Of a stretch of 21,480 bases of DNA, positions 2,927-15,738 are shown in pieces (position 1 is the first letter of the stretch; the number at the start of each line of letters is the position of its first letter). The notes under the pieces were generated by a model that was given only the letters and a program-made list of their open reading frames with translations, was not told the DNA's origin and did no database searches. This DNA comes from a virus: the IMG/VR virus record IMGVR_UViG_3300030329_005579, positions 2,620 through 24,099 of that record; one strand, written 5' to 3'. Position numbers and translations under genes: made by a program.

Positions 2927-5900
2927 TTATTTCGATTTTGGAGCGAAGGCAACCCATGAAGCTTGAATTTCCGTATCAAAAGATCTAGAGTCTATTGTTG
3001 ATGTTACTCCTACAATATCATAATAGCCGCCCAAACCTAAATCACGCTGCACAATGTCTTTATAATCACTGTTACTAAAACCTGTTAAGGTTGGATCAAT
3101 ATAAAGTTTCATGCCTTGTGTAAAGTGAGGGTTCCCAACAACACTCAGGCTAGCATCGTATTTCTCACGCAAAAGTCCGAAATCCGTGTCCCCGTTATCA
3201 ATAACGCGCGCTTCCTGCAAGAACTGTATATCTGTCTTTCTAAAGCCTATTGTTTTCAATATGCCCTTGTTTGCACCAATAAAAAAGTGTGGTATATTAT
3301 TTTTCAAATTTTTCTTATAAAGAAGGGCCTCCGAACCAATATAAGACGGAAGAGCCGATGAGCCAGCATCATAAAGTATGATATAGTGTTTCAAATCGCC
3401 TTTTGCTTGTGAAACGACGCTTGAGTTACCAATTAATTTTTTACTAAAAATAGGCTTCTTCGCATTTTTGCCCCCAAATTTCTTGTCAATATCTATCTGT
3501 AGTTTTTTATACGTAGAATTGTCTTTTTGTGGCTGTACCTTAAACTCTGGGTTTCTCATAGCACTAGCTGTTGTCGCTTTAATTTTGACATTCTTTAAAG
3601 GAGAAATCGCGCGGTTGTTGTCTTTACAGGTGTGTCCCAAAGCAGGAATTAACAATTCATGAACGGCATCGCGAATGTAGTGCAAAAGGTTATAAGTTGT
3701 CTTTTCTTCTGCAACTACATGTCTGGCCATAAAAGCTTTCCACTCTTCTAATAATATTGGAATGTGACAAATGTTTGTTAATCTTTCTTGACCGTCTAAG
3801 CCTTTGAACTTAATTGGTCCCATAAGAATTCCAACACTTTCCAATGCTTGTGGGTTGTTGTTCCATATATTTTGAACTGCGGCTTGTATAATGCTGCCAA
3901 ATCTAACCACATAAAATGAAAATTTGGATTTACCCTGGTGCTTATATAGGGTTTTTGGCTTGCCTTTTCGCCTCTGTTTGTCTAGCGCTTTCTTTGTTTG
4001 TGGTCCCGGGTTGGGAGCGTTTTGAACACCTAGAAATTTTTTACCCCTACGGAAAACTTGTTTAATTTTCAGTCCATTTGACGCTTTCTCATCTGTCATA
4101 AGCCGTGTATACGCATGATGTAACATTTCTCCTGGGTTTAATATAATATCTCCCTTGGAGTACCGTCCACTGCCAAGTTCTTTACGTAAGCTTTTACTCA
4201 ATCCCTTGTGAATTTTATTGCCGGAGCCCAAATATTCCTCGTCGATCGTCGCTTTCAATATATGAGTAGGTGTATTTTTCTCGTCTGGAGATCCATTATT
4301 CAGTTTGACCATTTTTCCATTCTCGTTAATCAAGTTTTCCCACATCTGCCCCCTTATTTCGTCTTTGCCGGCTTCAATCTGTGCCATAAGTTTCGACTTA
4401 AGGCGCCCCAAATTTAAAAGCTCTTGAGCCACATCTTTTTTATTAGTCTTGGGATCCCCTCGCAAGGCAGCTATAACTTGTCCTATAACTGAAGCTGATT
4501 TTATCTTCTTATCCAGGCCGTGTTCTGAAAAGATATTTGCATCAACGTCACGGATTTTTTGTTGTAGCCTTCCCATATATGAAAGATTCAAAGAGAGGGT
4601 TCCGTCATTACCAAAAGAAAAATCGTGCGTCATTAGCGTGAGATACAAAGTTAAATTTGTCGCATGAATAAATTTATTTAAATTTTGCATAACTTTTATA
4701 TCTTTCGAGGTGGACCCATATAAGTCCGGATTGATCGCCCAGCCAACGTTAATTTTGATCTGAAAATAGTCTCCGTTGTAATCACTGAGTGCCAAGTCGT
4801 TGAATTTATTTGCTAGCTCTTGTCCGCTTTCATTCTTTCCGAGGTATTTTTTAGAAAAATCTTTCGGATTCATCCCCAGAGCTGGCATTATAGATGACGT
4901 GTATAGCTTATTTTTAGTTCGCAAATCGGATCCTTTAATTGGATTATATTCGGCGGTACGGCGCAAAAAGTCAACATAAGAAAATTCTTTACCGTTTGTC
5001 GCTTTTCTCTTTTTCAAAAAAGAATTGATGCTATCAAAATATAAGCCAATTTTACACGTTAAGTATCTTTTGACGGTTGCAGGATTTTGGCCAGTTCTAG
5101 TAAAACTAACCCTGCTGATTCCGGCGTTTTCCCTCAAATAAACGCCTCCATCCGTTACTTCCGTTTTGTTAGAAAATTCAATCGGTATTTCAATTTCATT
5201 TCTATTATTATCGTATTGGACTTTATAGATCCGAATCTTAGGTATCAGTTTAGATACATCAGAATTTGTGATTTCCATGAAGCTTTTGAGTTGTTCTCCG
5301 TCTGGGTCTTGGCTAAATAACCTATTCATAAAAAAATGTGAATTTGCTGTATTTGGGCACATAAGAGGATATTGATCTGCCTTATAGTGTTGTTGATTAA
5401 GTTTGACTCCCGGATCTAGCAGGCTTTTTGTGGAACTAGCAAGATCAAAAGCAATATCTTTTACGCCAAAGGGAGCCAAGTTTGAAGTGTTTTCTAGTCC
5501 TGCAACGCCACGCTTTGTTGAATAAGAATCTTCAAACAAGGGCAGTATACATTTTAAATTTTCTATTCGTTTTTCTTCTGCCGAGCCAGCCCTCTTGTTG
5601 ATTTTGCCAAGGTCATCAACGGGACCATCTTTGCATTTTTGTTTTAGTTTTTCAGTGAACCTTTGTTTAAATTTTTCTTTATTGCTCAGATCGCCTGAAA
5701 AAGCAAGAGTTTGACTGGAACTGTAAAGCGCTTTTAAAAAATCTGTCGTAGTTGTCTTAATTCTCTTGGAGATCGTTTCGTTTTCGCGCTGTCTCAATAA
5801 TATCAACAAACCAAATCTGGCATCGCCAGGAAAATCTCCTTGTAGTGGCACCTTGAGTCTATTAATTTGTGCAGGACCTGACGATTTAGTTAGCTCGTTG

Positions 5901-6601
5901 AAGGCTTGATCTGGTTCGGTACTCAGTGCTATTAATAATTCTGATAACAGAATTTTCTTTTGTGAATCAGTGGCATTTATTTTTCCAAGATCTGCTATAA
6001 AGCCGCCGATTCTAGTTGTCAGAAAATTATTGAAAGCTTCATTTATTTCTGTGCCCGAACTTAAAGCAGTTATTTGCTCATCCTTAACTTTTAATAGTTT
6101 GGCGCCTGCTCTTGCCAAGGCTTGAAGTTCGCTAAAGATTCCAGCAACTTGTGCGGCCGTAGAAAATTCATATTTTGGTTGGTTATTGGTTCCCGCTACG
6201 AAGCCCTTGTTGTTGGATTTGAAATGAGTAAGTAGACTCTTTGTTCTTTCGAAAAGAAGTTGCGTTTCGTTAGCATTTATGTACTCTTCTTTTGTGTCCA
6301 TGTCGCTGCCCAATTTGGCAGAAGCCAATCCTGCGGCCACAAGTCTTTCCAGGCTTGCATCAGTACCATCTCTTTTAGTATCTCCACCGAGTTGGCGCAT
6401 ACCAGTGGTGTCACCAACAAGATCACCAACAAGCTTAAAATAAGGAGCTAGCGTCGTACTAATTTCCACCAGCAAATCATCAAGAACTTTGTGCTGAGCA
6501 AACGCGCGCTGAGCGTCTCCCAGTTCACAAATTTTCTTAATATCCGCATCCTCGTTGGGAACAACATTAAGCCACATTTTGTCGATATCTGAATCTGCCA
6601 T
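2927..6601 (-). CDS. Very large putative baseplate hub/structural protein
   Basis: This 1224-residue protein is the longest in the window. Residues 1-400 are helical and low in recognisable motifs. At 444-461 is ITNSDVSKLIPKIRIYKV, followed to about 530 by a beta-rich stretch with a GQNPATVKRYLTCKIGLYF segment. I recall similar 'PKIRxYKV' segments in large uncharacterised virion proteins of myoviruses. A basic stretch at 850-895 (many Lys/Arg and Pro) may be a linker. The last 70 residues follow a pattern typical of hub-type beta domains of the gp27/late-control-D kind: a GNPHF turn (1156-1160), MKLYIDP, a Gly-rich loop, GGYYDIVGVTS and an Asp-Thr-rich last strand. No lysozyme motif is seen. 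It lies 11 bases after the gp53-like gene. The ribosome binding site is weak. Gene certain; hub role moderately supported; it may instead be a wedge component. Confidence 0.8.
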   Translation of the reverse strand: MADSDIDKMWLNVVPNEDADIKKICELGDAQRAFAQHKVLDDLLVEISTTLAPYFKLVGDLVGDTTGMRQLGGDTKRDGTDASLERLVAAGLASAKLGSDMDTKEEYINANETQLLFERTKSLLTHFKSNNKGFVAGTNNQPKYEFSTAAQVAGIFSELQALARAGAKLLKVKDEQITALSSGTEINEAFNNFLTTRIGGFIADLGKINATDSQKKILLSELLIALSTEPDQAFNELTKSSGPAQINRLKVPLQGDFPGDARFGLLILLRQRENETISKRIKTTTTDFLKALYSSSQTLAFSGDLSNKEKFKQRFTEKLKQKCKDGPVDDLGKINKRAGSAEEKRIENLKCILPLFEDSYSTKRGVAGLENTSNLAPFGVKDIAFDLASSTKSLLDPGVKLNQQHYKADQYPLMCPNTANSHFFMNRLFSQDPDGEQLKSFMEITNSDVSKLIPKIRIYKVQYDNNRNEIEIPIEFSNKTEVTDGGVYLRENAGISRVSFTRTGQNPATVKRYLTCKIGLYFDSINSFLKKRKATNGKEFSYVDFLRRTAEYNPIKGSDLRTKNKLYTSSIMPALGMNPKDFSKKYLGKNESGQELANKFNDLALSDYNGDYFQIKINVGWAINPDLYGSTSKDIKVMQNLNKFIHATNLTLYLTLMTHDFSFGNDGTLSLNLSYMGRLQQKIRDVDANIFSEHGLDKKIKSASVIGQVIAALRGDPKTNKKDVAQELLNLGRLKSKLMAQIEAGKDEIRGQMWENLINENGKMVKLNNGSPDEKNTPTHILKATIDEEYLGSGNKIHKGLSKSLRKELGSGRYSKGDIILNPGEMLHHAYTRLMTDEKASNGLKIKQVFRRGKKFLGVQNAPNPGPQTKKALDKQRRKGKPKTLYKHQGKSKFSFYVVRFGSIIQAAVQNIWNNNPQALESVGILMGPIKFKGLDGQERLTNICHIPILLEEWKAFMARHVVAEEKTTYNLLHYIRDAVHELLIPALGHTCKDNNRAISPLKNVKIKATTASAMRNPEFKVQPQKDNSTYKKLQIDIDKKFGGKNAKKPIFSKKLIGNSSVVSQAKGDLKHYIILYDAGSSALPSYIGSEALLYKKNLKNNIPHFFIGANKGILKTIGFRKTDIQFLQEARVIDNGDTDFGLLREKYDASLSVVGNPHFTQGMKLYIDPTLTGFSNSDYKDIVQRDLGLGGYYDIVGVTSTIDSRSFDTEIQASWVAFAPKSK

Positions 6602-7807: not shown

Positions 7808-10408
7808 TTATCGCGCATCTGAATGTCCAACGTCCATATTCATAACGTCTATTACTTTTGATGCCATTCGTTGTCCATCAACTTCTAAATGAACAACAAT
7901 TGGTCCACCGCTACCGGCAGGGCGCGGGGCCTGTACAACAACGGGTGCTCGACTAGCTGCCATAACTGATGTTTTTTGCACCAAAGAAAAGTTGGCCGCG
8001 GCTTGTGCTAAGCGCTCCATGCCGTTGACAGCGCCGGCTGTCTGAGAAGCTTGGACTCCCACGCTGAGTGCCCTTTGCATTCCTACAGATGTTTCTTGCA
8101 TAGCCTCTCTTTGGTCTGGCGGCGCGGCAAGACTTCTTCGAAGATTTTGTGCGCCTGTTGCAACACCAGCCAACTTTGTTGTATCCAGATCATTAATCGC
8201 ACTACTAAGACCGCCGACACCATAAGAAATGCTACCGACAGTTCGAGACATATCTTTTAACCTGTCAGATGTCACACTTCCTGCCACACTAGCGAAAACG
8301 CCCATACCAGCAGCAGCGCTAGATGCGGCGCCGCCAACACGGGACAAAGATAGAGCCGTTGAAGAAACAGCTCCATCTGCTCCGCGTGTTACACCAACCA
8401 GTTTACCCGTTTCGCTAGCGAATCGGCCGACACCAGTAGTGCCAAGAGACGAAGCGCTAGACATTTTATTGATGGCTCTTGCAGTGGAATCGATTGCTTG
8501 ATACAAAATTGGAGAGTTTGGCTTCGTAAAAAGATTGACGAGTTGTGTTGCCCCGTATATGATACCGCCGAAACTAAGCAAGCGCAATGGACCTGCAAGT
8601 CCGCCGATTGCACCACCTAGCAAATTAAATGCTCCTGCGGCGGCGGAAAGGGCTGGGATTGCCAGTTTTACGGTCATGATTAATTTTCCGTGCCTCTGTA
8701 TAAAGTTAACCACCCTGTCAATGAGCCTCCCGATAGATTCTCTATTTCTGTCAAACCAGTCAACCATCGGCATCAACGCTCTCGTTAGCGCCATTGCAAT
8801 TGTTCTCAATCTGTCCATTATTGTTAAATTGTCTCTGGCTCGTTGCTCATTTAACCTTTGGGCTTCAGCGGCTCTCATATCAGCCGCAGTTTTCTGCCCC
8901 AACTCTGCGCGTAACATTCGCATGGCTTGTTCTACATCTCTCACTCCCATGGCCTGAGCAATTGCCATCCTTTGGAAACGACCCATAGAGTCGACTTGTT
9001 GTCCGGACATTTGTACACTGCGGGCTAACATTTGTATACGCTGACCTTCCGTTGCTGCGACCATTTGAACACTGTTCAAATAATTTCCTCCCAATATTGC
9101 ATTTAATTTTCCGACTGCGTTTGCGGCGCCTTCGAAAGTATCGAATTTGCTTGCCACCTGAAGAAGAGAGCCCATCGCCACACCAGTATTCTTTGCTTGT
9201 TCTTGAAGGTGCTTAAACACATTTATCATATTAGGACCATGTGCAGAGAGCGATCCCGCAAATTGTACAAAATTTGACATTGCCGTTTGTTCGCTGACTC
9301 CAATCTGGCGGGCGAAAACGGTTATCTTGCTTTGCGCGTCCATGGCCTGTTGTATGCTCATTCCAAACGTTCTGGTGAGCATATCAATTGAAGAAGCCGT
9401 TGTTTTGACACTCACGCCCAACCTATCTTGCTGAATTGCAAAAGATTGTACCTGACCACTCGCCGCGGCTGTTATTTGACTGAATTTTGACATGGAATTG
9501 TATAAAATCGATGCATTTTGGTACCCTTCTTGCATAGTAGCGGCAAACTTAGTATTGCGAACGACCGTCTCATTAATAACTGTATTATAGGATCTGCTAG
9601 CCCCGGTGGCCTTCGCGAATTCACTTGCAGCCCTTTCTTGTTGTGCAATTAGGCCCAATAAGGAGTTTGTTAAACTGGAAAAAGAACCAACAGCTATATT
9701 GACTGCAGTCGCGTTATCGCGAATTGTCGCACCGATAATACTTAATTTTTGACTGAAAGTCGCGCCGGAAGAGGATCCAAATACTGCTCCAAACAGTGAA
9801 CGATCTGCGGCGTCGGCAGCAATCATACCACCGGATAAAGTGGATATCCAACTAGACGTCAAAGATTGAATGTTGCGCATTTCACCTTGGCGTTGACCAA
9901 GTATGCTGTTAATTCTTTGGTGTTCCGCAGCTTCAGTTCGCAATGAACTTATTATTGAATTAACGGAATCTAGCTCTGCCTGGAGGTTAGATAATTTCTG
10001 CCGGTCGACTGAAGTGCCTTGCGAGGCTATCTCTATCGATTGCTGAAGAGCGTCTCTAAATTGCGAATAAACTGATACTATGTTATTGATGGCGCTGAGC
10101 TTCTGTTGTGACAATTGAAGCTGATAATTTATTTTGCTAATATTCTCGTTATTAGCATTAGCTTCCGCGCGGGTTAAAGCTGCAAGATCTTGCTGAGCCT
10201 GATTGATTTTATCAATAGTTTTTTCAACTTCTTCTTTCGATGCTCGAAGATCTCGTATACCACCACGAAGGCCCGGGCCCACATTTCCAGCTGCAGCCAT
10301 GTCGGCTCGACGCTCTTGTTTCTCCCTCTCCAGGCGTTCAGAGCGTTCTTGTTGCATCTCTCCTATGAGAGCGGCAATTTGCTGTAATAACTGTTCGTTG
10401 CTAGCCAT
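7808..10408 (-). CDS. Tail tape measure protein
   Basis: This 866-residue protein has the make-up of a tape measure, which sets tail length and later leaves through the tube. Residues 1-40 and 55-170 are strongly charged, Gln/Glu-rich coiled coil. The 340-500 region carries the conserved tape-measure core, including FDTFEGAANAVGKLNAILGG (422-441) and SMGRFQRMAIAQAMG. Residues 575-625 are hydrophobic and Gly/Ala-rich, a candidate membrane-active segment for DNA injection. The remainder to 820 is low-complexity Ala/Ser/Gly, followed by a short beta-like end (836-858). The ribosome binding site AGGGA stands 7 bases before the ATG. With roughly 0.15 nm per helical residue, a tail near 130 nm would be expected if the whole chain spans it. 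It lies between the small tail gene and the tail/baseplate gene, the normal order. Confidence 0.93.
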   Translation of the reverse strand: MASNEQLLQQIAALIGEMQQERSERLEREKQERRADMAAAGNVGPGLRGGIRDLRASKEEVEKTIDKINQAQQDLAALTRAEANANNENISKINYQLQLSQQKLSAINNIVSVYSQFRDALQQSIEIASQGTSVDRQKLSNLQAELDSVNSIISSLRTEAAEHQRINSILGQRQGEMRNIQSLTSSWISTLSGGMIAADAADRSLFGAVFGSSSGATFSQKLSIIGATIRDNATAVNIAVGSFSSLTNSLLGLIAQQERAASEFAKATGASRSYNTVINETVVRNTKFAATMQEGYQNASILYNSMSKFSQITAAASGQVQSFAIQQDRLGVSVKTTASSIDMLTRTFGMSIQQAMDAQSKITVFARQIGVSEQTAMSNFVQFAGSLSAHGPNMINVFKHLQEQAKNTGVAMGSLLQVASKFDTFEGAANAVGKLNAILGGNYLNSVQMVAATEGQRIQMLARSVQMSGQQVDSMGRFQRMAIAQAMGVRDVEQAMRMLRAELGQKTAADMRAAEAQRLNEQRARDNLTIMDRLRTIAMALTRALMPMVDWFDRNRESIGRLIDRVVNFIQRHGKLIMTVKLAIPALSAAAGAFNLLGGAIGGLAGPLRLLSFGGIIYGATQLVNLFTKPNSPILYQAIDSTARAINKMSSASSLGTTGVGRFASETGKLVGVTRGADGAVSSTALSLSRVGGAASSAAAGMGVFASVAGSVTSDRLKDMSRTVGSISYGVGGLSSAINDLDTTKLAGVATGAQNLRRSLAAPPDQREAMQETSVGMQRALSVGVQASQTAGAVNGMERLAQAAANFSLVQKTSVMAASRAPVVVQAPRPAGSGGPIVVHLEVDGQRMASKVIDVMNMDVGHSDAR

Positions 10409-10418
10409 TTATGTGTCC

Positions 10419-10757
10419 CTATTTAAACGGCCATTGTAAGCCAGTTTCTCTTTCGAATTGACTTATTGCCCGATCCAATTCATATTGATTTTTAAAAGTT
10501 TGCGGATTATTAAGGCCATGGCGCATATAACTTTCAATATATTTTTTTTCTTTTGTCAAGACATTACCAAACGCGGCGACTTGCGCAGCCGTGCCTTTAA
10601 TGTGCACATCCGGGCCTCCCATACCAAACATTTTTGTGAGAACTATTTTGATAGAATCACCTAATACGTAAGGATTTGGAGCCTCGCCCCAATACAACTC
10701 ATTTAGCTGCTCTTTTTCTTTCTTTATATTTAAATTAACCTCTAATACATCAGACAT
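10419..10757 (-). CDS. Small protein upstream of tape measure
   Basis: This 112-residue soluble protein is not recognised by name. It begins with a charged N-terminus (NLNIKKEKEQLNELYWGEAP), has a central stretch with GPDVHIKGTAAQVAAFGNVL, and a C-terminal helix-rich part ending in Trp-Pro-Phe-Lys. There is no signal peptide or membrane segment. It sits alone between the terminator at 10809-10833 and the tape measure gene, with AGAGGG about 7 bases before ATG 10757. The position directly before the tape measure gene suggests an assembly factor or a small tail protein, but nothing in its sequence proves this. A CTANTTA-type motif precedes it. Confidence 0.8.
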   Translation of the reverse strand: MSDVLEVNLNIKKEKEQLNELYWGEAPNPYVLGDSIKIVLTKMFGMGGPDVHIKGTAAQVAAFGNVLTKEKKYIESYMRHGLNNPQTFKNQYELDRAISQFERETGLQWPFK

Positions 10758-10808: not shown

Positions 10809-10833
10809 AAGCCGGCCAAAGAGGGGCCGGCTT
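10809..10833 (-). terminator. Intrinsic terminator after the gp26-like pair
   Basis: Perfect 9-bp stem AAGCCGGCC / GGCCGGCTT (10809-10817 with 10825-10833) with a 7-base loop, followed on the minus strand by TTTTATTTTG. The stem includes the stop codon of the preceding short ORF. It separates that unit from the tape measure unit. Confidence 0.88.
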
Positions 10834-11005
10834 ATTTGCTGCTTTTCTTATAAGCTTTCTCTATTTCTTCCCTTTCTATATCAAACTGATCCGAAAGACG
10901 AGTTAAAAACCACTTTCTTAATCTCACAGGAAGATTGTATGCTTCTATAAAGCTCCACCCGCCATGATATTTGAGCAAGAAAAACTGTTCATAGACAGCA
11001 GACAT
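10832..11005 (-). CDS. Short second ORF of the gp26-like pair; possible frameshift-extended tail-assembly domain
   Basis: From the ATG at 11005 this frame encodes 57 residues beginning MSAVYEQFFLLKYHGGWSF, followed by IEAYNLPVRLRKWFLTRL and a Lys/Glu-rich helical tail. The reading continues upstream without stop (GLSDDY before the Met) to the T7 run at 11024-11030, where it is the +1 (or -2) frame of the gp26-like gene. The Trp-Ser-Phe, Asn-Leu-Pro and Trp-Phe blocks recall short ORFs that follow gp26-type genes in T4-like phages. The ATG has only a poor ribosome binding site, and it lies 8 bases after the upstream TGA, so translation may be coupled or reached by frameshift. The encoded sequence looks like a real domain, not noise. 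Confidence 0.78.
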   Translation of the reverse strand: MSAVYEQFFLLKYHGGWSFIEAYNLPVRLRKWFLTRLSDQFDIEREEIEKAYKKSSK

Positions 11006-11012
11006 ATAATCA

Positions 11013-11909
11013 TCACTCAGGCCAAAAAAAGTCGGCCGTAAGCGGCACGTTAACCTCCTCTTCGTGCCCGCAGGACTTGCACGAAAACTCTTGCACCATA
11101 TCGACGTTCGGCGTAACCGCTGCATAACACAATCTGTAAAATTTAGAGTCAAAGGCCGGCATATTATCAATAAAGTTGCTAATTGCTGCCTTGTCAGTAA
11201 CTTTGTTGATAGCTATGATTGTCATCTTCATTTGGTCGGTCATCGAGACTTCTGCTGTGCCAAACCCATGCTTCTCTCTTTTCTTAACCATATAGGCCAT
11301 ATTTTTTTCGTCTTTCCCATTGAGAATACGGGCCTCTACAGTAACTTTAGTTTTCGGCAATGTGATCAAAAAAGTATTTTTTTCAGTGAATTCGATATTA
11401 TATTTCTTTAATTGTTCTTCTTCTGGATATACGTGATCTAATTTCGTCAAGTCAAATTTGTGTTTTTGCGTTGAACCACAAGCCACACAAGTTACGTTTG
11501 CTTCATATTCGGGGCCATAACCCGTAAGCCGGGCGCCTACCAGTAAGGCATTCTTATCTCCCACAAGAAGCTCGTCCAGTTTGATATTTTTGTCAACTAT
11601 CAAGTCTTGGATTAGTCGCTCGATTGCGATACCCTTTTTAAGAAGAGTTGGCGATGTCAATATATCCTCATGCTTGGCCGTCATATATTTAATCTCAATA
11701 ACATCTTTGCCCAGCAAGGGATGTCCAGGGGGGTAGAATTTCCCCCTCGAAGGTAGCTCTATAAACTCCGTTGGAGACACGAAAGAAAGTGGCGAACTTG
11801 TTTCAGTCGCCTGCTTCAAAGCGTGTCCAACTGCTTCTGCTGCAGCAGCAATATCTCCAGAAGAGTCCTGGGAAGCGCCCAGTCTCTCCTGATTATTTCT
11901 CTTAACCAT
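11013..11909 (-). CDS. gp26-like baseplate/tail-assembly protein with zinc-ribbon Cys pairs
   Basis: This 298-residue protein fits the T4 baseplate (gp26-type) family. Its best block, residues 52-100, holds LPSRGKFYPPGHPLLGKDV, then IEIKYMTAKHEDILTSPTLL and KKGIAIERLI. GDKNALLVGARLTGYG is at 118-132. Two Cys pairs, C141/C144 (CVAC) and C277/C280 (CKSC), are candidates for one zinc ribbon bringing the ends of the domain together. The first 40 residues are polar and Ala-rich, probably flexible. It begins at ATG 11909 with GAGGT 5 bases upstream and ends with FFWPE and TGA, right at a T7 run (11024-11030). In T4 gp26 helps assemble the central hub. Position before the tape measure also resembles tail-assembly chaperones such as lambda G/GT and Mu, which use frameshifting. 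It is longer than T4 gp26 (about 208 residues). Confidence 0.87.
   Translation of the reverse strand: MVKRNNQERLGASQDSSGDIAAAAEAVGHALKQATETSSPLSFVSPTEFIELPSRGKFYPPGHPLLGKDVIEIKYMTAKHEDILTSPTLLKKGIAIERLIQDLIVDKNIKLDELLVGDKNALLVGARLTGYGPEYEANVTCVACGSTQKHKFDLTKLDHVYPEEEQLKKYNIEFTEKNTFLITLPKTKVTVEARILNGKDEKNMAYMVKKREKHGFGTAEVSMTDQMKMTIIAINKVTDKAAISNFIDNMPAFDSKFYRLCYAAVTPNVDMVQEFSCKSCGHEEEVNVPLTADFFWPE
11024..11030 (-). other. T7 run, candidate programmed frameshift site
   Basis: On the coding strand the sequence is GAC TTT TTT TGG CCT GAG TGA in the gp26-like frame. Phe-tRNA on the second TTT can re-pair perfectly with TTT after moving +1 or -2. Either move enters the frame GGC CTG AGT GAT GAT that encodes the short ORF. 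A -1 move would end at once at TGA (TTG GCC TGA), so only +1 or -2 is useful. No strong downstream stem is evident by eye. Confidence 0.45.
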
Positions 11910-11993: not shown

Positions 11994-12578
11994 TTATCTG
12001 CTAATGCGTAGAGTGTCGTGACCAGCTTTCGAGGGGTTGTCGTAAACTGCCCAGTCATATCGCAACGTCAAACTAATATTTGTAATATCTTCGTTATCGT
12101 ATGAAAGACTACCAAAGTTTACACTTTTGATCCACGAATTGTGAAGTGTCCACTGATCGATGGCCGCGGCCAATTCACCCTGTGGTCCAAGTTGTCGTAA
12201 AACAACTTCGCCAAGCTGGTCAACAGAAGCAGCCTTAGAAAAGGTTATTCCCGCAGCAGTCTGAGCTTGCATGTTTGGCTCGTTGGGAAAAGCATATCCG
12301 GCTTTTTTAATTCTACTTACCATCTCAAAAGTGGCGTCAGGAAAGAGAGGATCAACCAAAGTTACTTCAATCGAAGACCAGGTAAGCTTACCTGGGAAGA
12401 AGAACGTATGGTTAATATAGCTATGTGAAGCTTCCCCAATATCAAAACTGGGCTTCGAAGCCGTTTTAACAATCCATGAAGGGATGCTGTCGCCGGCTGC
12501 ACCGAAGGACATTACCCATTTATAATTTCTTTTTGGAGAAACATTCGGTGAACTCCAGTATGAAGGTGAACCAGCCAT
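11994..12578 (-). CDS. 19: Tail tube protein (gp19-like)
   Basis: This 194-residue protein matches gp19-type tail tube proteins in length and layout. It has a strand-rich start (KRNYKWVMSFGA), then IPSWIVKTASKPSFDIGEAS, a stretch with HTFFFPGKLTWSSIEVTLVD, and a C-terminal strand pair LRYDWAVYD ending in a polar tail. Tube subunits stack as hexamers inside the sheath to form the DNA channel. It follows the sheath gene by 81 bases, the classic sheath-tube order, and has GAGGAG 10 bases before ATG 12578. Length (T4 gp19 is 163) and motifs are near the family norm. Assignment by recognition is good. Confidence 0.92.
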   Translation of the reverse strand: MAGSPSYWSSPNVSPKRNYKWVMSFGAAGDSIPSWIVKTASKPSFDIGEASHSYINHTFFFPGKLTWSSIEVTLVDPLFPDATFEMVSRIKKAGYAFPNEPNMQAQTAAGITFSKAASVDQLGEVVLRQLGPQGELAAAIDQWTLHNSWIKSVNFGSLSYDNEDITNISLTLRYDWAVYDNPSKAGHDTLRISR

Positions 12579-12659: not shown

Positions 12660-15600
12660 TTAGTCTTCGAAAGAAGCGCCTGTATTCGTGATAAGGAAAT
12701 CCAAAGCAATAAACTCAATTGCTTTCGTCGGCTTCAAGAAAACCTTGGCGTAAAGAATGTTTCTATCAACCAAGTCATCAGACGTTGTAGTTTTATCTAA
12801 AACAACCCTGAAATCGGAAAGGCCGAAACGTGATTTGATTCCCTCAAGGAACGGATTAACTTGACTCAAGAATCTGTCCCAGGTCGCCTGCACATTAGGC
12901 TCGAAGAGAATTGTCGCAGCGATTCTGGAAATTTGCTTTTTGACAAAAATCAACAGTCTGCGCACATTAATTCTATCCAAAGCAGATTGCGTTATTTGAA
13001 GCGTCTTTTGTCCAAAAATCACAATACCTTCGGACGGGAAACTAGCAATCGGATTAATGTTAGCTTCGTAGAGATCGTCTCTATCATCAACAGTCAGTCG
13101 TTGTCGAACGTTAGTAACAGGAATTCCTGCCGATCCACCCGACAAACCGCCTCTGTTGAAGCCCGCTGGGGCGAACCAAAGCTCTGCGCTCTTTTGAGTG
13201 TTAGAGAACACGCCCAAGGCTACAACCGAAGGTGGCACCCAGACTAATTTTCCAGGGTGTGACTCGGAAGCCGTATCTCGAACTTGTACCCAGGGATAGA
13301 AAGCGCAACCATAACTAGAATTAAGCCCTCTATCTTTGAAGGAGCTTACTGCGGTGGATACTGTTCCAATTCTACTAGATTCCGAAGAAAGGCTCTCATA
13401 CCGCGGCGTGAAATCGTTTGCAATATCAATGATTGCAAGAGCATCGGCTCTGTCTTCACAAATATTGACCATGTGGTCCGTAAGGGAAGAATCAGTCACA
13501 CCAGGAACTGCGAGAAGGTCCATTTCAATGGCTTCAGCATCTGCAACGGCATCAATTGCTCTCTTGACAGAGTGGTATGCGTAGTTTTTCTTTTCATCTC
13601 TATTTTGATTATCTAGAATATGATTACCAAAAGGCTCTGCTTCTGTGATGTTTAAACCATTATGGCCACCATAAAGCACAGCGGTAAATCGGTTAAATCC
13701 ATTATCCAGCACCTGCTTATAGGTACCGGAAACGGCAGTATAAGAAGTGCCTGCCGCGCGGGAGCCGGATGTATAAATTGCAACATCCGGATTTCCGGTA
13801 GAAGTTATCATACTGCCACTTAGGTCATCCAAAGAGAATACCCAAGCATGTTCAGTTACGGTACCATTAGGATCGTGTCCGTTTGTGCACACGCCTTCTG
13901 GAAGGGCCCTGACTATATCTAGACAGCTTTCTTCAAATAAGGTTGAAGGAGATGGTTCTTCGAGCCTGTTAAAATCTGCTCCAAAGAAAGCATCTTTGGG
14001 ACGAACCAAGGAGCCGGAGCGAGATGAGGCGCGAAGTGGAACAGTCGGGAAAAGGAATGACCCAGTATAAGACTGGGCATTATTTACTGGAATGCTTCCG
14101 GTAGCAATTGGGTTTTGTCCTGCTGTAGCGGAACCAGTCCAACACATGATCCCTTTTTCACCGTGTGTTTTTGGTACGGTATCTGGCCCTGTTTCTAAAA
14201 ACAAATTTGCGCCCCATGCATCGCCAACGCCGGATTCAGTATAATGTTTAAGTTTTAGGTTTCTTCCTTCAATTTTGAAACCTTTATAGCGAAGATGTCC
14301 CCTGACGCCGAAAGGCAATAATTCAGGGTCGGCGCCGCCGTTTTTGATATCTTCATCTATTACAACTCTTATAATCTTGGAAACATTGTTATAGTCTCCT
14401 GTTTCTTTATAGAGCTTCTTAGTGTTATCCCAAGTCAATATTTTATCTCCGATCCTCTTTGCAATATAGTTTTCTGAATCGGGGTTTAAGTTAAGATTAG
14501 CAAATTTCTCTAGAATAATAGGTGCGTTGTCTTTATCGCGAATATCTCTTAAGACAACAGTAAACGAACCGTATTTTTCAAACTTGTTTCTCGGGGCCTT
14601 GATATCCATGATGGATACTTTCACATTGTTCTGTGCCCATTCGCCATCATCCAAAGAACAAAACCTAAAAAGATTTTTAACGTAAGTTGTACCATCTGGT
14701 GTAAAGCTTGCGTAATTTTCTCGCACATCTTGCGAAATAAACCATCCAGTTTTTGAAGGGCGCGTGGCTATGTTTTGATCTTGATGTTGATATGTATCGT
14801 TGCCCAAAGCCATAATGGTTCCAAAAACCGTTCCTGCTGATGATCCGCTGCCAATATATCTTTTAACTTGGCCTTCGAATGTCTCACCAAGCCAGTATTT
14901 AGAAGTTGTATTTGTAATAATCGGATTTGTCGCAGCGGGGCTGGTATTAAAAACCCTACGAATAAATTTTGAACTATCTCGATCAAAATTGAAAGAGTAT
15001 TTGGTTGTTACAGAGCTATCGCTCAATTCAACTGTCCACGTATTGCTCGCTGCGTTTTTGTATAATCCACCGAGCGATGCACTTGTTGTAGACCCAAGAC
15101 TTGGTATTGTGTCGTAAGTTGATCCAGTGGCGTCACCGTGACCAGCAACGACAGTACCGGTGAGGGCAATTGAGCCACTTTCAAGATACCAAACAGCAGC
15201 CAGTGTTCCAGTCGGATAATGACCGCCGTCTCCAAGAGAGGCCGAATCAATAAGAAACAGCGCATATGCTCCACCATTTGAAGCTTCAGCCTTATTAAAA
15301 TTAGCGTTACTCGTCGTCCAGCCGGCTTTTGCGCCGATGTCTGATGTTTTTTGAGGATGTTGTTCGCCCAAAAGTCTTACGAATGTGAGAGGGGAGTTAT
15401 TTTTTAACCAAGCCTGTGCAGCATATACAGCGTATGTCGGCCCCAAAGGAGCGTTGTTTCTCCACACATCGCCGTCAGATCCGCCTCCGGGATTTGGCGA
15501 ACCGAAAAGCTCAACAAAATCCGAAAAAGAATCAACTTTAACCGGGCGCATCCCGGGTCCTTTCTCAGAACGACCAATTACCACTGGTCCAATGTCTTCT

Positions 15601-15680
15601 GGTAGTGCGGTCAGCGCACTGTTATCAATCTCGTCTAAAAAAATTCCGGGAGATACAAATTTAAATTTTCTCTCAGCCAT
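12660..15680 (-). CDS. 18: Tail sheath protein (gp18-like), unusually long
   Basis: This protein of 1006 residues is a contractile sheath subunit. The N-terminus has the family pattern VSPGIFLDEID, then GPVVIGRSEKGPG and FSDFVELFGSP (within about 75 residues of the start). The C-terminal third carries VPGVTDSSLTDHMVNICEDR, NVRRLLIFVKKQISR, LFEPNVQATWDRF and DKTTTSDDLVDRNILYAKVF, the domain that forms the inner sheath ring. T4 gp18 is 659 residues, so the middle part (about 90-650) holds large surface insertions rich in Ser/Gly/Thr. Start choice: ATG 15680 has AAAGGAG 10 bases upstream, while the upstream in-frame ATG 15689 is only one base from that site; the longer form would add MFA. It precedes the tube gene. 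High certainty. Confidence 0.94.
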   Translation of the reverse strand: MAERKFKFVSPGIFLDEIDNSALTALPEDIGPVVIGRSEKGPGMRPVKVDSFSDFVELFGSPNPGGGSDGDVWRNNAPLGPTYAVYAAQAWLKNNSPLTFVRLLGEQHPQKTSDIGAKAGWTTSNANFNKAEASNGGAYALFLIDSASLGDGGHYPTGTLAAVWYLESGSIALTGTVVAGHGDATGSTYDTIPSLGSTTSASLGGLYKNAASNTWTVELSDSSVTTKYSFNFDRDSSKFIRRVFNTSPAATNPIITNTTSKYWLGETFEGQVKRYIGSGSSAGTVFGTIMALGNDTYQHQDQNIATRPSKTGWFISQDVRENYASFTPDGTTYVKNLFRFCSLDDGEWAQNNVKVSIMDIKAPRNKFEKYGSFTVVLRDIRDKDNAPIILEKFANLNLNPDSENYIAKRIGDKILTWDNTKKLYKETGDYNNVSKIIRVVIDEDIKNGGADPELLPFGVRGHLRYKGFKIEGRNLKLKHYTESGVGDAWGANLFLETGPDTVPKTHGEKGIMCWTGSATAGQNPIATGSIPVNNAQSYTGSFLFPTVPLRASSRSGSLVRPKDAFFGADFNRLEEPSPSTLFEESCLDIVRALPEGVCTNGHDPNGTVTEHAWVFSLDDLSGSMITSTGNPDVAIYTSGSRAAGTSYTAVSGTYKQVLDNGFNRFTAVLYGGHNGLNITEAEPFGNHILDNQNRDEKKNYAYHSVKRAIDAVADAEAIEMDLLAVPGVTDSSLTDHMVNICEDRADALAIIDIANDFTPRYESLSSESSRIGTVSTAVSSFKDRGLNSSYGCAFYPWVQVRDTASESHPGKLVWVPPSVVALGVFSNTQKSAELWFAPAGFNRGGLSGGSAGIPVTNVRQRLTVDDRDDLYEANINPIASFPSEGIVIFGQKTLQITQSALDRINVRRLLIFVKKQISRIAATILFEPNVQATWDRFLSQVNPFLEGIKSRFGLSDFRVVLDKTTTSDDLVDRNILYAKVFLKPTKAIEFIALDFLITNTGASFED

Positions 15681-15738
15681 GGCAAACATTCTCCTTTAAT
15701 ATAACGCAACTCTAGAGCTTGCAAGTGATCAAACTTTC

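Follow-up and report, generated by a model that had tools for sequence, protein, structure and literature searches.

The gp26-like gene of a marine T4-like phage very likely encodes two forms of a tail assembly chaperone, produced from one gene by a programmed +1 ribosomal frameshift. The evidence for this conclusion is comparative and includes no protein, ribosome-profiling, or reporter data. The stretch of DNA analyzed as a whole, hereafter the window, spans 21,480 nt (positions 2,620 to 24,099 of the IMG/VR record IMGVR_UViG_3300030329_005579) and contains a structural module encoded on the minus strand, as are all features described below: a capsid protein, sheath, tube, the gp26-like protein, a 112-aa ORF, and a putative tape measure protein.

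The sheath gene occupies positions 12660-15689 and is followed by a gp19-like tail tube gene (11994..12578; PHROG 4542, E 6.8e-19) directly upstream of the gp26-like gene. The latter (11013..11909) encodes a 298-aa protein that matches Pfam PF12322 (T4_baseplate) with E 2.9e-13 and 50.5 bits, against a curated cut-off of 24.5, as well as PHROG 150 (E 3.9e-16). Its AF2 model has a pLDDT of 84, and its BFVD matches are phage baseplate hub and gp26-type proteins. The second gene downstream of the chaperone (7808..10408; 866 aa) is the putative tape measure gene, assigned only by position and length, as neither Pfam nor PHROG gave a confident family match. The gene pair thus lies between the tail tube and tape measure genes, which meets the criterion for a chaperone of the lambda G/GT type, and the order sheath–tube–gp26–domain–tape measure is also found in annotated phage relatives.

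The gp26-like gene ends in GAC TTT TTT TGG CCT GAG TGA, with a run of seven T (T7) at 11030-11024 and the zero-frame stop TGA, which ends the short form, at 11013..11015. The shift site, defined by the sequence and its conservation in relatives, is GAC_TTT_TTT_TGG, with the P-site TTT at 11027-11025 and the A-site TGG at 11024-11022. From the T7 run, the +1 frame is open (GGC CTG AGT GAT GAT TAT ATG...) to a TAA at 10834-10832, and it encodes the C-terminal domain of the predicted long form (10832..11023; 63 codons, GLSDDY...KKSSK, plus TAA). An in-frame ATG at 11003..11005, 7 nt past the TGA, would give a protein of 57 aa, but it is not conserved. Upstream of the site, the RNA is predicted to form a hairpin (CG.GCCG-CTTA-CGGC.CG; 11033..11049; −7.6 kcal/mol) that ends 5 nt before the P-site codon.

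Relatives were collected by protein searches from viral contigs, isolate phages, and four genome bins, and the junction was read in each; the gp26 alignment consists of rows taken from viral contigs. Among the +1 relatives, Flavobacterium phage immuto, Microcystis phage Mel-JY01, and Bacillus phage SP-15 are in culture. The survey comprises 182 loci in which the domain was detected by profile, XacN1 alone being assigned by its open frame; dereplication at 90% reduced these to 157. Among the dereplicated loci, the domain lies in the +1 frame in 142, in the −1 frame in 15, and in frame with gp26 in none. Site sequences were tabulated for a subset of 84 dereplicated loci, consisting of the first two scans and the isolates: TTT TTT TGG CCT (68), TTT TTT TGG TCT (6), TTT CTT TGG CCT (5), TTT TTT TAC CCT (2), TTC TTT TGG (2), and TTT TTT TGG CTT (1), so that YTT_TGG is kept in 82 of the 84. 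More distant +1 members mostly have TTT followed by C, as in Streptomyces phages (CTG_TTT_CGC), Bacillus phage SP-15 (TTT_TTT_CAC), Streptococcus phage GXN1 (TTC_TTT_CGT), and LR756508 (AAC_TTT_CTA); the site in Listeria phage LIS04 is TTT TTT AGT. At nearly all +1 sites, the P-site YTT is able to re-pair on TTY one base forward. One locus (L146; AAT TTT TTT TGG) is the only +1 member with an intact T_TTT_TTT before TGG, and there a −1 shift is also conceivable.

The direction of the shift follows from those sites that deviate from an uninterrupted run. At TTC TTT TGG, TTT CTT TGG, CTG TTT CGC, and AAC TTT CTA, re-pairing two bases back is impossible, and the domain is still in the +1 frame; in total, the T run is interrupted or short, or the site bars a −2 slip, in 17 of the 142 dereplicated +1 loci. 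We infer a +1 ribosomal frameshift because at least 17 +1 genes exclude both a −2 slip and homopolymer slippage. An earlier note, made from sequence alone, had described the T7 run, the TGG CCT GAG TGA ending, and the GLSDDY domain, and had read them as a +1 or −2 frameshift. Its coordinates and observation held, as did the frameshift reading, with the choice now settled as +1 by the relatives; its statement that either slip on T7 re-pairs perfectly is correct for the window alone.

Comparison also shows that the +1 frame is under selection from the junction onward. Each of 73 aligned relatives is free of stops in the +1 frame over 48 codons, whereas the other two frames have totals of 260 and 311. 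Over the initial eight codons past the shift, which lie upstream of or at the position of the window's ATG, third positions of the +1 frame take 54% of substitutions (73 aligned loci), with the caveat that the first four of these codons overlap gp26, which affects the count. Both frames are under selection. Of the 84 loci, 9 have no ATG, GTG, or TTG upstream of the core GGW/GGY motif in the +1 frame, and 41 lack an ATG in the interval from the shift site to that motif. Modeled separately from the gp26-like half of the fused protein, the domain is predicted by AF2 to form three helices (pLDDT 92), the first of which starts at residue 4.

Synonymous codon choice around the site provides a second line of evidence. 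In +1 genes, the codon before TTT is NNC in 91 cases and NNT in 2, whereas the rest of these genes has a T:C ratio of about 2:1 (Fisher p 3e-42). Among −1 genes, the preceding codon is NNT in 15/15, completing the heptamer T_TTT_TTY. The +1 genes avoid this heptamer and have the domain in +1, so the −1 shift on X_XXY_YYZ of the lambda type does not apply to them. The P-site Phe codon is TTT in 79/79 (78% elsewhere), and the Asp at −6 is GAC in 57/59 (32% elsewhere). The pattern holds across amino acid changes before the FF pair (Asp, Asn, Ser, Thr). The tests treat loci as independent after dereplication at 90% and ignore the remaining shared ancestry, so that p-values are too small; nonetheless, the constraint on the site and on the hairpin described next is shown by the comparison.

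Codon choice is likewise skewed between −24 and −9 (GAG, GTG, CCG, ACG, GCG), where the sequence folds into a hairpin, GAGGU.CCGC-loop-GCGG ACU, or into the same hairpin in a shifted register. In the window clade, the mean folding energy of positions −24 to −1 is −6.5 kcal/mol, versus −1.8 for synonymous recodings; the effect is weaker in other +1 loci (−3.7 vs. −2.1) and absent in −1 loci (−1.2 vs. −1.5), and the upstream hairpin was found in +1 genes only. A test for covariation in a fixed register gave pair counts that offered no improvement over a column shuffle (589 vs. 586.8 ± 1.4), whereas the folding energy beats that shuffle (−6.50 vs. −5.13), because the register of the hairpin differs between loci. 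No clear signal of a downstream stimulatory RNA structure emerged in the two downstream spans analyzed (mean z −0.29 and −0.86). We also considered an internal Shine-Dalgarno element like that of the release factor 2 gene and rejected it: a GGAGG is conserved, but it starts at −25 (52/84) or −31 (18/84), more than 15 nt away and at a distance of at least 20 nt from the P site, and it is the 5′ arm of the hairpin.

From these observations, we propose the following mechanism, in which the occurrence of the shift in vivo, its efficiency, and the effect of the hairpin are all inferred without expression data. Most ribosomes would terminate at the TGA and release the short, gp26-like form. When the peptidyl-tRNA sits on the last YTT with a slow-to-fill TGG in the A site, it may slip one base forward onto TTT, after which GGC CTG... 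would be read, generating a long form that carries a 63-residue helical C-terminal domain. Forward slipping is probably favored by the hairpin that closely precedes the P-site codon, and the choice of bases ahead of TTT TTT would serve to keep the −1 heptamer absent. By analogy with lambda G/GT, the short form may coat the tape measure protein and the added domain may recruit the tail tube protein.

Four other explanations of the junction were weighed. The strongest is that of two overlapping genes, in which ribosomes that have finished gp26 re-initiate at the ATG at 11005 and make the domain as a separate 57-aa protein. In its favor, that ATG lies 7 nt past the TGA in the window, and an ATG is similarly placed in many relatives; furthermore, a separate small gene is listed in the annotations of the Microcystis and Flavobacterium relatives, and the cyanophage gp51 is annotated as a gene of its own. 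Against it stand the nine loci without any start before the core motif and the 41 without an ATG after the site, as well as the onset of +1-frame conservation at the T run, upstream of any start; nor would a separate gene explain the synonymous constraint at the T run and its neighbors. We therefore consider it very unlikely as a replacement for the frameshift, although additional separate initiation remains possible in approximately half of the relatives, where an ATG lies near the domain start.

Transcriptional slippage, in which RNA polymerase drops one U within T7 so that some mRNAs encode the fusion, is likewise highly improbable. T7 is present in the window and most relatives, and the loss of one T would fuse the frames. 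However, dereplicated +1 loci with an interrupted or short run (17) keep the +1 frame, and polymerase slippage does not explain sites without a long T run; the scarcity of T immediately ahead of the run in +1 genes and the presence of the hairpin point to the ribosome. A −2 frameshift, as in phage Mu, has equally little to recommend it: a −2 slip on T7 also re-pairs and leads to the same downstream frame, but the P-site tRNA cannot pair two bases back at TTC TTT TGG, at TTT CTT TGG, or at sites with a single TTT. Finally, homopolymer runs are error-prone, but a sequencing error or a decayed single-frame gene is practically ruled out by the recurrence of the junction in over 140 loci, drawn from independent metagenomes and from genomes of isolates, with both frames under selection.

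The programmed +1 frameshift can be set against several known systems. Chaperones of the lambda G/GT type with a programmed frameshift (Xu, Hendrix and Duda 2004; reviewed in PMC5009743) likewise have their gene between those for tail tube and tape measure; the lambda shift is −1 on a canonical heptamer, whereas that of the window is +1 on YTT_TGG in proteins of the PF12322 family. The G-T frameshift was described as conserved in long-tailed phages ‘except T4’ (PMC5009743), and T4 and its relatives use two separate genes (26, short; 51, long), in contrast to the one gene and +1 shift of the window. T4 gp26 ends at the FF site, and gp51 consists of PF12322 and a C-terminal extension, collinear with the fused product. 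The gp26/gp51 proteins of cyanophages and a pelagiphage (P-HM1, S-PM2, P-SSM2, HTVC008M) are of the same family and occupy the same place as the pair in the window, but their domain lies in the −1 frame, with a canonical T_TTT_TTC or T_TTT_TTT at the end of gp26. In these phages (L130/L133 for P-HM1, L129 for S-PM2, L128 for P-SSM2, and L131 for HTVC008M), the gp51 domain is open through the −1 site; that of P-HM1 is annotated as a separate gene despite the open −1 frame. A second −1 group, comprising L025 (XacN1), L132 (LR756511), L134, L138-L140, L144, L148, L149, L152, and L167, has GGT TTT TTC TTC CC. or GCT TTT TTT ATT at the site, and its zero frame continues for several codons beyond the site before the stop.

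The earlier note had held that frameshifting is not usual for gp26-type genes, which is borne out only in part, as the cyanophage gp26/gp51 pair carries a canonical −1 site. It had also stated that the frameshift would be refuted by relatives in which a separate ORF has a strong ribosome binding site and the T run is not conserved; the relatives do not fit that description, since many lack any start codon and the site has been kept.

In a tree of gp26, 68 +1 rows including the window form one clade (96/97 support); the tree also has another +1 group, around SP-15, and a pair of −1 groups. The three states require only three changes on this tree, although some branches are long. A bolder reading, for which we see as much reason to doubt as to believe, is that the upstream hairpin, acting on the exit side of the ribosome, sets the direction of the slip, and that the family has moved between −1, +1, and, in T4, two genes, while making the same two proteins. 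The states in this reading, which we hold just as loosely, would be T_TTT_TTY without an upstream hairpin for −1 and C_TTT_TTT_TGG with a hairpin for +1.

The function of the two products is inferred from the T4 gp26/gp51 family, the profile comparisons, and the cyanophage gp51. T4 gp26 and gp51, both members of PF12322, are reportedly tail assembly chaperones (Vladimirov, Gautam and Davidson 2022, by title), and chaperone-like roles for them are also mentioned in PMC9024508. T4 gp26 ends in ...KEFFELL, and gp51 has some 45 residues more. A profile of the fused protein aligns with T4 gp26 only up to the FF site (E 1e-5) and with T4 gp51 collinearly to its end (E 5e-4, probability 32%), while the domain alone matches the gp51 C-terminus only weakly (hhalign probability 2%), and no match to the domain profile was found in the T4 genome. 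The domain profile of the window clade scores 17.7-26.5 bits on P-SSM2, S-PM2, P-HM1, and HTVC008M, right after gp26. A Foldseek search matched the domain to Gp51 of P-HM1 with a probability of 0.97, though with E 0.37, and a fold search against the PDB returned no match for the domain. The best explanation is that the gp26-like protein is the short tail assembly chaperone and the fusion its long form, equivalent to T4 gp51; as chaperones of the lambda type, the products would bind the tape measure and tail tube proteins and be missing from the virion. A link to DUF6760 and eCIS rests only on weak profile matches (E 0.07-0.17) in three divergent members, and DUF6760 was not mentioned in the literature searched.

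Frameshifted tail chaperones are known, and a +1 shift has been predicted between the two chaperone ORFs of the HF1-group haloviruses and HSTV-2 (PMC7230728, PMC5009743), at TTT-CGC in the HF1 group (PMC7230728). The HF2 sequence has the same +1 arrangement at TTT_CGC, the site of the Streptomyces relatives, but differs in that the HF2 protein is not PF12322 and the hosts are archaea. The autoregulatory +1 frameshift site of release factor 2 is CUU_UGA_C. The site in the window resembles it in that a P-site YUU re-pairs on UUU one base forward and the A-site codon starts with U and is followed by C; it differs in having a sense UGG rather than a stop in the A site, with the stop several codons later, and a hairpin in place of the Shine-Dalgarno element 3 nt upstream. 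Signals for −1 shifts in T4-like chaperones are mentioned in PMC12846349, and a 2022 study of these chaperones reportedly concludes, by its title, that another mechanism is used. The literature searched contains no +1 shift in the gp26 family, YTT_TGG site, upstream hairpin, or change of direction within that family. Likely to be new are the upstream hairpin, the conserved +1 site of RF2 type, and the switch of slip direction inside one family, although part of this may already be contained in Vladimirov 2022.

Many gp26-type phages, then, appear to frameshift, mostly by +1, although PMC5009743 treats T4 as an exception. In bacteria, +1 shifts are less common and less well understood than shifts in the other direction. 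With +1, −1, and two-gene solutions at the same protein position, the gp26 family lends itself to a natural comparison, and its upstream RNA signal can be tested. At a practical level, many annotated genomes lack the gp51 domain or give it a wrong start: the gene called in the immuto phages of Flavobacterium starts within the domain, and Streptomyces phage pSt2308 and Listeria phage LIS04 have no gene call for it.

Several features of the surrounding window complete the description. A hairpin resembling an intrinsic terminator (10809..10833; nine pairs, seven of them G-C, then a T-rich tail) lies directly 3′ of the fused gene, upstream of the tape measure gene; by eye, two relatives (L002 and L003) also seem to have such a hairpin after the fused chaperone gene. 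Between this hairpin and the putative tape measure gene is the 112-aa ORF (10419-10757), which is distinct from the frameshift domain and has no family match. Downstream of the tail genes, a 1224-aa ORF (2927-6601) has no Pfam or PHROG match. An ORF at 209-1402, whose listed start is TTG, adjoins the tail genes and has a by-eye likeness to family A DNA polymerase (LDFNAAEVR..., YLIQSTTSDL..., SIHDSLVLD).
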